Assembly (NCBI RefSeq): GCF_000262465.1
Contig: NZ_CM001489.1
Location: 2,228,597 to 2,292,596, forward strand
Direction of reading: 5' to 3'
Length of the DNA: 64,000 nucleotides
From: Frankia sp. QA3
GTDB taxonomy: Bacteria; Actinomycetota; Actinomycetes; Frankiales; Frankiaceae
Shown: positions 56,311-61,302 of the stretch, piece by piece
How positions within the stretch are numbered: position 1 is the stretch's first letter
Layout: each line of letters starts with the position of its first letter
Notes under the pieces: model-generated
Told to the model about the DNA's origin: nothing
The model's database searches: none
The model's input: the letters and a program-made list of their open reading frames with translations, nothing else
Translations under genes and position numbers: made by a program

Positions 56311-57069
56311 GTGGCGACCGCGCAGTCCCCGAAAGGCGGCTCGGGCGGCTCGGGTAGGGCGCGCAGCCTGCGGGGGCAGGGTGAGCAGCTTCGCCGGGAG
56401 ATCCTGGCCGCGGTGAACCACCTGCTGGTGGAGTGGGGCAGTGCCGAGAAACTGACAATGCGCGCGGTCGCCAAGGAGGTCGGGGTCGCGGCGCCGAGCA
56501 TCTACCTGCATTTCCCCGACAAGGCGGGGCTGGTCTGGGCGGCGTTGTCCGACAAATACGACGACCTGGTCGCGAGCATGGCGCGGGCGGACGAGGCCAG
56601 CGACGGCACCGACCCCCGGGAGCCGCTACGGGCGCAGACGCATGCCTACTGCCGGTTCGCGCTGAGCAACCCCGGGCACTACCGGCTCATGTTCGAGGTG
56701 CCGCAACCGACGGTCGAGGTCGCGAGGATCAGCGAACATCCGGCGCACGGCGTCTCGGCCAGTTTCCGCGCCGGATTCCGGCGGTGCCAGGAGGCGGGGT
56801 ACGCGCTGTCCCTGCCGGTGGAGCAGGCGGCGCAGACGCTGTGGGCTGGGCTGCACGGCATGGTGACGCTCCACCACAGCCTCTTCCGCGACGAGTCGAC
56901 GGAGAGCCTGACGCTGCAACTGGCCGACGGCCTGCTCGACTCCCTCGTCGCGAGTACGCCGGGCGCATCGCCGCCCTTCCGGTCCGCTCCCGCGGAAACC
57001 GCCGCCTCGCGCCACATCCGGGCCATCCTGGCGGGCAACGCGGACCTTCAGGGCAACGGAAAGCGATAA
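56311..57069 (+). CDS. TetR-family transcriptional regulator of the P450 operon
   Basis: 252 residues. Helix-turn-helix: AAVNHLLVEWGSAEKLTMRA and VAKEVGVAAPSIYLHFPDKA (residues ~33-72). The C-terminal part (PHYRLMFEVP-like HYRLMF segment, WAGLHGMVTLHH) is the TetR_C subgroup found with P450/flavin catabolic genes. GTG at 56311 after GGAGGTGG. It lies 273 bp upstream of the ferredoxin gene in the same direction, with a TetR-type palindrome in the gap, and probably represses the operon and perhaps itself until a substrate-derived ligand binds. Confidence 0.92.
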   Translation: MATAQSPKGGSGGSGRARSLRGQGEQLRREILAAVNHLLVEWGSAEKLTMRAVAKEVGVAAPSIYLHFPDKAGLVWAALSDKYDDLVASMARADEASDGTDPREPLRAQTHAYCRFALSNPGHYRLMFEVPQPTVEVARISEHPAHGVSASFRAGFRRCQEAGYALSLPVEQAAQTLWAGLHGMVTLHHSLFRDESTESLTLQLADGLLDSLVASTPGASPPFRSAPAETAASRHIRAILAGNADLQGNGKR

Positions 57070-57236
57070 GCCGGCAGGCATATCGCGAATAACTGAGCCA
57101 GCAGTCCCGCCGGACAATTATGAACCGACCCCGACGGGGACGTAGCGGCGCAGAACGGTCGATGCCCGACCGAAGCATAAATGTCGTGCTTGGTTCGGGG
57201 CGGTTTGCCTACTTCACAGGTCGTGGGTACAGTCCG
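57070..57236. other. Intergenic region upstream of the P450 operon
   Basis: There is no gene. The region is relatively AT-rich for this genome and leads into the palindrome at 57237. Confidence 0.5.
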
Positions 57237-57253
57237 ACTTAACTTAGTTAGGT
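57237..57253 (+). promoter_or_regulatory. Palindromic TetR-type operator
   Basis: ACTTAACTTAGTTAGGT: the core TAACT-T-AGTTA (57240-57250) is a perfect palindrome, with AC/GT also symmetrical outside it. Such TTAACT/AGTTAA-like sites are common TetR operators. It lies ~90 bp before the ferredoxin start, where a repressor would block the operon promoter. Confidence 0.6.
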
Positions 57254-57342
57254 GACCGGGGTCGACAGGTGACCGAGACCACGAAATCTGCCAGTCCCCC
57301 GGCCGGCATCGCCCTGAGCAAGGACATGCCAGGAGGTTTCCC

Positions 57343-57537
57343 ATGAAGATTTCTGTCGATTTCGACAAGTGCTGCGGCGCGGGCCAGTGCGTGCTCGCCG
57401 CCCCCGACGTCTTCGACCAGCGCGACGACGACGGCATCGTCGTCCTGCTCGACGCCGACCCGCCGGCCGACCAGTACGACAACGTGCGCCAGGCCGCCGC
57501 GGTCTGCCCGGCGGCCGCCATCGAGGTGCACGAGTGA
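57343..57537 (+). CDS. [3Fe-4S]-type ferredoxin
   Basis: 64 residues: CCGAGQC (residues ~10-16) and the distal VCPAAA (near 55) Cys-Pro, with LAAPDVFDQRDDDG between them. This is the same P450-type ferredoxin family as the gene at 30961. The ATG has a perfect AGGAGGT at 57330-57336. It is the first gene of a four-gene operon with its reductase, a dehydrogenase fusion and a P450, each overlapping the next. Confidence 0.95.
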   Translation: MKISVDFDKCCGAGQCVLAAPDVFDQRDDDGIVVLLDADPPADQYDNVRQAAAVCPAAAIEVHE

Positions 57538-58850
57538 CCGCCGCGGCCCCGTCCCGGATCGCCGTCGTCGGTGCCTCGGCCGCCGGCCTGAGCGTCGCGG
57601 AGGGACTGCGGCGCGACGGCTACACCGGGCGGGTGACCCTCATCGGCGACGAACCGCACCTTCCCTACGACCGGCCGCCGCTGTCCAAGCAGCTGCTGTC
57701 CGGCGCGTGGGACACCGACCGCCTGCGGCTGCGCAGCGCCGAGGCCCTCGAGGCGCTCGACCTCGAGCTGCGGCTGGGCGCCGCGGCCGTCGCCCTGGAC
57801 ACCGGGGCGCGCGAAGTGGCCCTGGCCGACGGCAGTCGGGTCGGCTACGACGCGCTCGTCGTGGCCACCGGGGTGGCCGCCCGCCGGCTGCCGGGCACCG
57901 AGGGCATCGCCGGCGTGCACGTCCTGCGCACGCTGGAGGACGCGGTCGGCTTGCGCGAGCAGCTGCGCCCCGGGCTCCGCCTGGTGATCGTCGGCGCCGG
58001 CTTCGTCGGCGCCGAGGCGGCCGCCGTCGCCCGGGAGCTGGGGGCCGAGGTCACCATGGTCACGGATGCGGCGGTGCCGCTGGCCGACGCGCTCGGCCCC
58101 GACCTGGGCGCCATGCTCTCCCAGGTCCACGCCGAGCACGGGGTGCGGATCATGCCCGGCGTCCTGGTCGACGCCATCCTCGCCGCGGGTGGCCGGGCCA
58201 CCGGGGTGCGGCTGGCGGACGGCCGGACCGTCGAGGCCGACGCCGTGCTGGTCGGCATCGGCGCCCACCCCAACACGGGCTGGCTCGCCGCGAGCGGCGT
58301 CCCGGTCGGGAACGGGGTGGAGTGCGACGCCACCCTCTACGCCGGTTCAGGCGTATGGGCGGCCGGCGACGTCGCCTCGTGGCTGCACCCGCGCACCGGT
58401 CGGCGCCTCCGCATCGAGCACCGCGCGAACGCCGCCGAGCAGGGCCTGGCCGTCGCCCGCAACATCCTCGCCGGGCCGGAGCACGCGACCCCCTTCGACC
58501 CGGTCCCGTACGTCTGGTCCGACCAGTACGACCTGAAGATCCAGATCTACGGCCAGCTCCGAGGCTGCGATCAGGTACGGATCGTCGAGGGCAGTCTCGC
58601 CGAGCGCAGGTTGACGGCCCTCTACGGCCGGGACGGCCGCGTCCGCGGCACCGTCGGCATCAACATGGCCCGGGCCACGCGCAGGTACCGCCCACTGGTC
58701 GCCGAGCAGGCCGCATGGCCGATCGCGGCCGACCCCGATCCGGCCCTCAGTGATGGTCCGGCCCTCAGTGATGGTCCGGCCCCCAGCGATGGTCCGGCCC
58801 CCAGCGGGGTGGCCCTCAGCGGGGTGGCCCTCAGCGGAAGGAACGCATGA
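57534..58850 (+). CDS. FAD-dependent ferredoxin reductase (oxygenase-coupled type)
   Basis: 438 residues. FAD loop VVGASAAGLSVAEGLRRDGY (residues ~11-30), GDEPHLPYDRPPLSKQLLSG (the DRPPLSK signature of oxygenase-coupled reductases), the NAD loop VIVGAGFVGAEAAAVARELG near 147, and the AAGDVASW block near 284. It transfers electrons from NAD(P)H to the ferredoxin just upstream, then to the P450. GTGA overlap with the ferredoxin stop. The last ~30 residues are a low-complexity tail (DGPALSDGPAPSDGPAPSG) made by an 18-bp tandem repeat (about 58744-58806). Confidence 0.95.
   Translation: MTAAAPSRIAVVGASAAGLSVAEGLRRDGYTGRVTLIGDEPHLPYDRPPLSKQLLSGAWDTDRLRLRSAEALEALDLELRLGAAAVALDTGAREVALADGSRVGYDALVVATGVAARRLPGTEGIAGVHVLRTLEDAVGLREQLRPGLRLVIVGAGFVGAEAAAVARELGAEVTMVTDAAVPLADALGPDLGAMLSQVHAEHGVRIMPGVLVDAILAAGGRATGVRLADGRTVEADAVLVGIGAHPNTGWLAASGVPVGNGVECDATLYAGSGVWAAGDVASWLHPRTGRRLRIEHRANAAEQGLAVARNILAGPEHATPFDPVPYVWSDQYDLKIQIYGQLRGCDQVRIVEGSLAERRLTALYGRDGRVRGTVGINMARATRRYRPLVAEQAAWPIAADPDPALSDGPALSDGPAPSDGPAPSGVALSGVALSGRNA
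58744..58806 (+). repeat. 18-bp in-frame repeat at the 3' end of the reductase gene
   Basis: Units of GCCCTCAGTGATGGTCCG and its GCCCCCAGCGATGGTCCG variant are repeated about three and a half times, followed by two GTGGCCCTCAGCGGG copies up to the stop. It adds Ala-Leu/Pro-Ser-Asp-Gly-Pro units after the last structural motif. Confidence 0.8.
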
Positions 58851-60088
58851 TGTCGGAGACGAGGACGCTGCGGGCCGGCGTGGTGGGCCTGGGAATGATC
58901 GGCGGCGGGGTGGCCGTCAGCATGGCCCGGCGCGGCCGGGTTCCCGCGGTCCACGACGTCCGGCCGGGCGCGTCGGCGGGCCTGCCCGGCGTCGGCGACC
59001 CGCTGGACTCACCCGCCGCGGTGGCCAGGAGCAGCGACGTCGTGATGGTCGCCGTCGTCACCGCCGACCAGGCGCGCGACGTCATCGGCGGCGAGAACGG
59101 GCTGCTGGCGGGCGCCCACCCGGGGCTCACAATCGTCCTGCTGTCCACCGTCGCCCTGCCGGTCGTCCACGAGCTGGCGGCCCTGTGCGCCGGGCACGAC
59201 GTGGGCTTCCTGGACTGCGGGGTGACCCCCGGCGACCGGGCGGCCGACCATGGCATGGTCGCCATCGTCGGCGGGGACCAGGCCACCGTGGACGCCGCGC
59301 TGCCCGTGCTCGACGACTGGGCCAGACGGGTGGTGCACTGCGGCCCGCTCGGCGCCGGCATGGCCACGAAGATCGCCCGAAACGTCGTCACCTACGGCAG
59401 CTGGCGCGCCGTGTCCGAGGCAGCCGCCCTGGCCCGCGCCGCGGGCGTGGACCCCGCCCGGCTCGCCGAGGTCATCGACACCGCCGACCCCGAGGGCCAC
59501 ACCCTGCTCACCCTGCTGCGTCTGCGTGGCTCCGACGGCACGCTGCCCGAAGCGGCCGGGCGGAAGATCCAGCCGCTGATGACCAAGGACCTCGACGCCG
59601 CCCGCGACCTCGCGGCCGCCCTGGCCGTCGACGTCCCCCTGGTCGAGGTGGCCCGGACCCGCGCCGAGCAGACCCTCGAACTGGACGGCCAGGACGCGAC
59701 CGTCCCCGCCGACGGCGACCTGCACCGCCACGGACTGCAGATGATGGACCGGGTCTACGGCCCCGGCTTCAGCACCGCGATGCCGGGCGAGCGCGACCCC
59801 TTCACGGACGAGACCGTGGACTACCTGTTCGCCCAGGTCTGGGCCCGGCCCGGCCTGTCCGTGCGCGACCGCCGGCTGCTCACCCTCGGCGTCGCCGCCA
59901 CCGTCGGGCGCCCCGAACTCATCCAGGTCATCGCCACCGGCGGGCTGGTCAACGACGAGCTCACGCCCGATCAGCTCCGTGAGGCCGTCCTGCACCTGGC
60001 CGTCTACACCGGCTGGTGCAAGGCCACCGCCACCCACGCCGGCGTCACGGCCGCCGTCGAGGCCCACACCGCGAAGGAGCCGAGATGA
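58847..60088 (+). CDS. Dehydrogenase-carboxymuconolactone decarboxylase fusion
   Basis: 413 residues with two enzymes in one chain. The first ~280 are a 3-hydroxyisobutyrate-dehydrogenase-like protein: Rossmann GVVGLGMIGGGVAVSMARRG (11-30), TPGDRAADHGMVAIVGG, and catalytic Lys175 and Asn179 in GAGMATKIARNVV. Residues ~295-405 match the CMD fold: DRVYGPGFSTAMPGERDPF, RDRRLLTLGVAATVGRPELI and EAVLHLAVYTGWCKATATHA. A linker of ~12 residues joins them. ATGA overlap with the reductase, and its own stop overlaps the P450 start. Two steps of one route (oxidation, then decarboxylation or ring-type chemistry) are inferred. Confidence 0.9.
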   Translation: MMSETRTLRAGVVGLGMIGGGVAVSMARRGRVPAVHDVRPGASAGLPGVGDPLDSPAAVARSSDVVMVAVVTADQARDVIGGENGLLAGAHPGLTIVLLSTVALPVVHELAALCAGHDVGFLDCGVTPGDRAADHGMVAIVGGDQATVDAALPVLDDWARRVVHCGPLGAGMATKIARNVVTYGSWRAVSEAAALARAAGVDPARLAEVIDTADPEGHTLLTLLRLRGSDGTLPEAAGRKIQPLMTKDLDAARDLAAALAVDVPLVEVARTRAEQTLELDGQDATVPADGDLHRHGLQMMDRVYGPGFSTAMPGERDPFTDETVDYLFAQVWARPGLSVRDRRLLTLGVAATVGRPELIQVIATGGLVNDELTPDQLREAVLHLAVYTGWCKATATHAGVTAAVEAHTAKEPR

Positions 60089-61302
60089 CGACGCAGCACC
60101 TCATCGACCAGCCCATCACCCGCGACCCCGCCCACCCCCTCGACCCGCCCGTGCAGTACACCGAGCTGCGCGAGAACCAGCCCGTCGTCAGGGCACGCTT
60201 CCCCAACGGTTCGACCGGCTGGCTGGTCACCCGCTTCGAGGAGGGCAGCCAGGTCTTCAGCGATCCCCGCCTGAGCGCGAAGCGCCGCCGCCACGACACC
60301 CCCGAGGGCGAGCAGGCCGAGACCGGCGACGACGCGCCGTTCGACGCGGGCTTCGTGATGATGGACGAGCCCGAGCACGGCGCCTACCGGCGGCTGCTCA
60401 CGGCCCGCTTCACCCCCAAGGCCGTGCAGACCAGGCTCCAGCCCTACCTGGACAGGATCGTCGCCGAGCATCTCGACGCCATCGCCGCCGGACCGGAGAC
60501 CTTCGACTTCGTCCAGGCCATGGCGCTGCCCATCCCGTGCCTGGTGATCTGCGAACTGCTCGGCGTCCCCTACGCCGACCGCGACGGCTTCCACCACGCC
60601 ACCGAGGCGATGATGGACATGGGCACCAGCCGCGCCGAACGCGACTGCGGGGCCCACTGGCTGGTCGACTACATCACCGCGCTGGTCGCGGACAAGCGCC
60701 GCACCGGCGACACCGAGGGCATCCTCGCCGAACTGATCGACAAGGCCGGGGCCGAGGGATCGATCCTCACCGAACGCCAGCTCGTCGGCCTCGGCGTGCT
60801 GCTGCTGTTCGCCGGCCACGACACCACGGCCGCCATGATGGGCCTGTCCACCCTCACCCTGCTCACCCACCCCGAGCAGCGCCGGGACCTGACCGACCAC
60901 CCGGAGAAGATCGGGACCACGGTCGAGGAGCTCCTGCGCTACCTGACCATCGTCCAGTTCGGCCTCGGCCGGGTCGCCACGGAGGACCTGGACCTCGGCG
61001 GCGCGCACATCAGCAAGGGCGAGCTGGTCGTGGTCGCCATGAACGCCGCCAACCGCGACCCCCGCGTGTTCGGGGACCCCGACGCCCTCGACCTCGACCG
61101 CACCATGGTCCGCCACCTGGGCTTCGGCTACGGCGTCCACGCCTGCCTCGGCCAGAACGTCGCCCGCGCCGAGCTGAGGACCGTCCTGCCCGCGCTCTTC
61201 CGGCGCTTCCCCGACCTGCGCCTCGCCACCCCGCTGGAGCAGGTCCCGATGGACTTCACCGGCACCAACTACGGCGTCCGCCAGCTCATGGTCACCCGCT
61301 GA
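60085..61302 (+). CDS. Cytochrome P450, terminal oxygenase of the operon
   Basis: 405 residues. I-helix AGHDTT (243-248), ExxR in EELLRY (281-286), and heme loop GFGYGVHACLGQNVAR with Cys354. It starts ATG at 60085, overlapping the fusion gene by 4 bp (ATGA). The ELLGVPYADR helix is shared with the P450 at 29696. It receives electrons from the ferredoxin/reductase encoded first in the operon. Substrate unknown; the fusion dehydrogenase suggests a hydroxylated acid or ring product is processed next. Confidence 0.95.
   Translation: MTTQHLIDQPITRDPAHPLDPPVQYTELRENQPVVRARFPNGSTGWLVTRFEEGSQVFSDPRLSAKRRRHDTPEGEQAETGDDAPFDAGFVMMDEPEHGAYRRLLTARFTPKAVQTRLQPYLDRIVAEHLDAIAAGPETFDFVQAMALPIPCLVICELLGVPYADRDGFHHATEAMMDMGTSRAERDCGAHWLVDYITALVADKRRTGDTEGILAELIDKAGAEGSILTERQLVGLGVLLLFAGHDTTAAMMGLSTLTLLTHPEQRRDLTDHPEKIGTTVEELLRYLTIVQFGLGRVATEDLDLGGAHISKGELVVVAMNAANRDPRVFGDPDALDLDRTMVRHLGFGYGVHACLGQNVARAELRTVLPALFRRFPDLRLATPLEQVPMDFTGTNYGVRQLMVTR

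Follow-up and report, generated by a model that had tools for sequence, protein, structure and literature searches.

A TetR-linked P450 cassette shared by Frankia and other actinobacteria, with a dehydrogenase and a CMD-like protein that occur both fused and split

Introduction

P450s of the CYP105 type with an adjacent [3Fe-4S] ferredoxin are known, for example from the herbicide-inducible systems of S. griseolus. The Frankia operon described here shares with those systems a small [3Fe-4S] ferredoxin neighbouring the P450, which is CYP105-like, but adds a reductase and a protein in which a dehydrogenase is joined to a domain of the carboxymuconolactone decarboxylase (CMD) family. The dehydrogenase part resembles 3-hydroxyisobutyrate dehydrogenase and tartronate semialdehyde reductase in both domains, the GLGxIG motif, the catalytic Lys and Asn and the fold; unlike such β-hydroxyacid dehydrogenases, it has an LDCGVTPGD loop, scores far below every NCBIfam equivalog cut-off and carries the fused CMD-like part. 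The latter, in turn, shares with PcaC and the PcaCD/PcaDC fusions its CMD family and several framework residues, yet it falls below all PcaC cut-offs and has neither the invariant His nor the GDxHVDR motif of PcaC.

A further comparison is offered by a mycobacterial locus whose P450s we take, from sequence features and gene order, to be CYP51 and CYP123. In M. tuberculosis this region, Rv0762c-Rv0771, falls together in expression (PMC10470581), and it likewise combines a ferredoxin, P450s, a HIBADH-like dehydrogenase and a CMD protein in one co-regulated region. It differs in keeping all of these as separate genes, in its distant dehydrogenase (~40% identity), in its extra SDR and aldehyde dehydrogenase, in having CYP51/CYP123 where the Frankia operon has a CYP105-like P450, and in having no matching operator. 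Our literature search, conducted mostly outside subscription journals, covered the cassette, the fusion and the pair of genes in the CYP51 locus, and that expression study was the only paper it returned; within the same scope, the view of a first-pass annotation of this DNA that the route had not been described before agrees with what we found.

Results

The window, that is, the whole stretch of DNA analysed, comprises 64,000 nucleotides of Frankia sp. QA3 (genome of 7.59 Mb in a single contig), and its closest named relatives are other Frankia (F. tisae, F. gtarii, F. torreyi and Frankia sp. AiPs1). On its forward strand, a gene for a TetR-family regulator (56311..57069; 252 aa; Pfam TetR_N and TetR_C_33), presumably a local repressor, precedes four genes: a ferredoxin (57343..57537; 64 aa; Pfam Fer4_13/Fer4_15), an FAD-dependent ferredoxin reductase with a GTG start (57534..58850; Pyr_redox_2 and Reductase_C by Pfam, also recognized by NCBIfam), the fusion protein (58847..60088; 413 aa; β-hydroxyacid-dehydrogenase-like over residues 1-284 and CMD-like over ~297-409) and a CYP105-like cytochrome P450 (60085..61302; 405 aa; Pfam p450, with AGHDTT and FGYGVHACLG). 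The four are chained over 57343-61302 by 4-bp overlaps at the ferredoxin/reductase (GTGA), reductase/fusion (ATGA) and fusion/P450 (ATGA) junctions, and every expected domain of the five genes scores above its Pfam gathering threshold. P450, ferredoxin and reductase stand next to one another with intact motifs, as in class I-type P450 operons. The first-pass annotation had described a four-gene overlapping operon headed by a TetR gene and a palindrome and forming a self-contained P450 oxidation unit, and each of these elements is borne out by the coordinates, the junctions and the presence of the operon's own redox partners and regulator.

The ferredoxin motif CxxAxxC...CP, the pattern of [3Fe-4S] ferredoxins, is conserved across loci. 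Among the top PDB matches of the P450 is CYP105AS1 (4oqr), and its identity to 8z9s, the nearest solved P450 measured and one given without a CYP number, is 45%; membership of CYP105 requires more than ~40% identity to a named CYP105, and we speak of a CYP105-like enzyme. The reductase gene ends in two in-frame tandem repeats (58739-58837), an 18-bp unit in 3.7 copies and a 15-bp unit in 2.8 copies, which encode a low-complexity tail (PALSDGPALSDGPAPSDG...) beyond the Reductase_C domain; the alignable reductase stops earlier in some other Frankia.

Between the TetR gene and the ferredoxin lies an operator-like dyad (57235..57255, without strand; consensus TAACNNAACTWAGTTNNGTTA) whose core, AACTTAGTT, occupies 57241-57249. 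Of 41 loci, 35 have the exact core AACTWAGTT ahead of the cassette, against a chance expectation of ~1e-4 per locus in first-order Markov sequences modelled on these regions. The core is also kept in loci whose TetR gene follows the P450, and weaker or displaced versions occur in loci L031, L038, L048, L052, L053 and L076. A TetR orthologue accompanies the cassette in most loci, whether upstream, downstream or divergent, and it probably binds the dyad. The hexamer TACAGT precedes the core by 7-9 bases in every Frankia and in most close relatives, so that the dyad would lie across the transcription start, as expected of a repressor site. In Frankia, TTGCCT stands 17 bases before the hexamer, and the resulting promoter-like element lies on the forward strand just upstream of the operator, at approximately 57206..57233, give or take a base or two; a scan for strict consensus promoters returned nothing, the TTGCCT-17-TACAGT pair being below its threshold. 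With a palindrome placed at the promoter-like element of the genes that it would control, the locus has the layout of a TetR-repressed operon. The extended operator pattern occurs once in the host genome with up to one mismatch allowed, so that the regulator looks local to one operon, and no further sites were found at that stringency that could hint at a regulon.

A search of genomes from 84,980 species yielded 50 relatives, and each locus was read for its gene structure. Dehydrogenase and CMD-like part are joined in a single frame in 30 sequences including that of the window, the other 29 loci being spread over several genera, and the conserved neighbours of these chains are the genes of the cassette. 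All cassette-bearing Frankia species examined have the fused form. In 17 loci the two are separate genes, adjacent in most and frequently overlapping by 4 bp; these come from Pseudonocardia, Saccharopolyspora, Actinoallomurus, Sciscionella, Amycolatopsis, some mycobacteria and a few others. Gene order is otherwise identical between fused and split forms. The dehydrogenase/CMD-like gene of one Streptomyces locus (L030) resembles a frameshift, and in two Pseudonocardia loci (L052 and L053) the CMD-like gene and the P450 sit together on the opposite strand, the dehydrogenase staying with the ferredoxin and reductase. The unusual fusion noted in the first-pass annotation is therefore real and recurrent, though it does not recur with a known function, and the idea that it is special in itself finds no support, since the same cassette, presumably with the same role, has two adjacent genes in other genera.

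Pfam places NAD_binding_2 (11-166), NAD_binding_11 (169-284) and CMD (323-395) on the fusion, all above gathering scores, and no stop or frame break appears near residue 285 in the window sequence. An AlphaFold model consists of two well-formed parts (mean pLDDT 88.5, pTM 0.74). The structure run used the non-plasmid rows. Among the best 50 structural matches listed there were only β-hydroxyacid dehydrogenase-type proteins, with 3qha at the top, and no solved two-domain relative.

Residues 1-284, with the glycine-rich GLGMIG, the two NAD-binding domains and the catalytic Lys and Asn, belong to the β-hydroxyacid dehydrogenase superfamily. As the first-pass annotation had stated, Lys175 and Asn179 are in place; they sit in a K(I/L)ARN motif that is kept in every family member reading through this stretch, apart from the truncated L059. 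The substrate loop is LDCGVTPGD, the usual one in these enzymes being DAPVSGG. The model for 3-hydroxyisobutyrate dehydrogenase (TIGR01692) gives 104.1 bits against a cut-off of 291.6, and the dehydrogenase part approaches none of the NCBIfam equivalog cut-offs.

The CMD-like part departs further from its namesake. It scores 39 bits against the PcaC model TIGR02425, whose cut-off is 155.7. We compared it with ten PcaC domains from relatives that pass this cut-off and with two solved CMD proteins. The PcaC His is shared by both solved proteins and by nine of the ten PcaC rows, the remaining row being out of register; the same position in the cassette family holds Gln in 31 of 47 members, Ile in 16 and His in none, and GDxHVDR is absent from all 47. 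Trp332, Arg334, Arg342, Glu379, Tyr387 and Gly389, on the other hand, are invariant or nearly so in the cassette family together with true PcaC. The letters of the catalytic site that the first-pass annotation had named are present, but Cys391 is Cys in 22 of 47 members and Gly in 24, and His397 is kept in only 24 of 47. CMD-type chemistry by the second enzyme, as claimed there, finds no support, the hallmarks of PcaC being missing family-wide, and decarboxylation by this part is accordingly uncertain. As the active site of carboxymuconolactone decarboxylase is stated not to have been determined (PMC3141380), the loss of the His is suggestive, though no proof, of a different chemistry.

Across loci, the only conserved neighbours are the cassette genes themselves. 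SDR genes recur in 26 loci, at varying places; no transporter is conserved with the cassette, and no wider gene cluster points to a substrate. Identity to the window's proteins rises and falls together for P450 and dehydrogenase (r = 0.95, 40 loci) and for TetR and dehydrogenase (r = 0.82, 34 loci). Shared descent alone can give such correlations, and they are therefore evidence of joint inheritance, not of function. Of 395 genomes of the class, exactly the six Frankia genomes that bear the fusion have a close P450. Four mycobacterial loci (L031, L032, L034 and L076) keep TetR, the operator or a near match and the fusion with no close P450, which means that the fused enzyme can also act on a substrate that the P450 does not make. 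Seven loci have no ferredoxin and/or reductase next to the cassette, and redox partners can thus come from elsewhere. With P450 and redox genes missing from some loci, the dehydrogenase and the CMD-like protein form the most constant core.

Discussion

We read this locus as an inducible, TetR-repressed and self-contained catabolic or detoxification cassette in which P450, dehydrogenase and CMD-like part would act in that order, and we hold this reading with belief and doubt about evenly balanced. The proposed sequence is the simplest chemistry that uses all of the parts. TetR on the operator would block transcription until a substrate or product binds it. Electrons from NAD(P)H would then pass through the reductase and the [3Fe-4S] ferredoxin to the CYP105-like P450, which would hydroxylate a small organic compound; the dehydrogenase part would convert an alcohol into a carbonyl, the compound most likely bearing a carboxylate or similar group close by; and the CMD-like part may act on that carbonyl product, for example by decarboxylation of a β-keto acid or by tautomerization. 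A benefit of the fusion would be that the intermediate stays local, but it is evidently optional to fuse the two parts, as many relatives make them as two proteins. A more specific version, tentative and in our view possible rather than probable, is that the fusion would be a bifunctional oxidative decarboxylase (or oxidase/tautomerase) with a catalytic apparatus other than that of PcaC, and would be central to a P450-initiated degradation route of actinobacteria that has not been described before.

The principal rivals concern what the operon is for and what the CMD-like part does. Rather than degrade a compound, the P450 and fusion could decorate a metabolite made elsewhere, as a tailoring unit of secondary metabolism. 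CYP105-like P450s are often biosynthetic, and the top NCBIfam match of this one, although below cut-off, is pentalenolactone synthase; yet no biosynthetic genes are conserved around the cassette, it has its own TetR with a single genomic operator, and it is scattered over genera and plasmids, all of which makes tailoring unlikely. The local regulator, the lack of biosynthetic neighbours and the patchy, partly plasmid-borne distribution are likewise our reasons for favouring catabolism or detoxification over biosynthesis. The dedicated catabolic or tailoring route that had been proposed at the outset is in this sense upheld as a dedicated role, most likely a catabolic one.

The CMD-like part could also be no enzyme at all but an oligomerization or docking module that holds the dehydrogenase and P450 partners. 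Its position between the dehydrogenase and P450 genes, its fusion in some lineages and the family-wide loss of the PcaC His (47 of 47) and of GDxHVDR would all suit such a role; we nevertheless find it doubtful, as six framework residues are (nearly) invariant together with true PcaC and many genera make the part as a free protein. That it is an AhpD-like peroxidase shielding the P450 system from peroxide is highly improbable: the Pfam family is the same, but AhpD requires a CXXC (PMC3141380), and the CMD-like part has the single, poorly conserved Cys391, replaced by Gly in half of the family. Least credible of all, and rejected here, is that sequencing error or read-through joined two genes. 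A single indel could do so in the split relatives, whose genes overlap by 4 bp, but the frame is unbroken near residue 285 and the same joined form recurs in 29 other loci of several genera, including all cassette-bearing Frankia species examined, so that the fusion is neither an error nor chance.

If the catabolic or detoxification reading is right, actinobacterial catabolism would gain a further route that starts with a P450. The small cassette is maintained, operator included, in dozens of actinobacteria from soil and plants, and the operator with its single-site regulator provides a handle, as the compound that releases TetR is probably the substrate or product. Through TetR, candidate substrates can be tested directly, and this gives the locus a moderate interest. 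It also offers a natural case of the same enzyme pair both fused and split.

Frankia, Streptomyces, Nocardia and other genera, dozens of actinobacteria in all, share the conserved cassette, but its presence is patchy (6 of 13 genomes of the genus Frankia and 2 of the remaining genomes in the 395-genome class sample), scattered over genera and partly plasmid-borne. When trees are built from the dehydrogenase part, the fused sequences form two groups, one of Frankia, Streptomyces and Nocardia and one mycobacterial, and 0 of 200 bootstrap trees unite all fused forms. Judged from these trees, the fused form likely arose twice; an AU test does not reject a single origin (p = 0.145). A fused dehydrogenase/CMD-like gene also occurs on a Ferruginibacter MAG contig of 44% GC (L022:7875-9236), with no P450, TetR or operator seen near it, and is likely a transfer to Bacteroidota.

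Several related arrangements were met along the way. In the mycobacterial CYP51-type locus (L062 and L077:7595-9605), genes for a CMD protein, a HIBADH-like enzyme and an SDR each overlap by 4 bp; in L077 they adjoin genes for an aldehyde dehydrogenase, a P450 and another SDR as well as a CYP51-like frame. Saccharopolyspora endophytica has a second, divergent set adjoining its cassette (L041:11364-16034), with SDR, P450, reductase and ferredoxin on one strand and a TetR and a CMD protein that retains the PcaC-type His on the other. On sphingomonad plasmids, dehydrogenase and CMD genes are adjacent without a P450 operon of the cassette type; in Novosphingobium resinovorum SA1 plasmid pSA2 (L064:8275-10181), TetR, dehydrogenase and CMD-like genes stand in a row with a 4-bp overlap, not far from TonB receptors and a P450. 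Taken together, the mycobacterial, Saccharopolyspora and plasmid arrangements indicate that a P450, an alcohol dehydrogenase and a CMD-family protein recur together. Finally, the genome of Streptomyces mexicanus has, besides two ordinary cassettes (L016 and L017), a third fusion that is very divergent (~40%); it lies close to a P450 of 57% identity (L055:5681-9242), without ferredoxin, reductase or operator.
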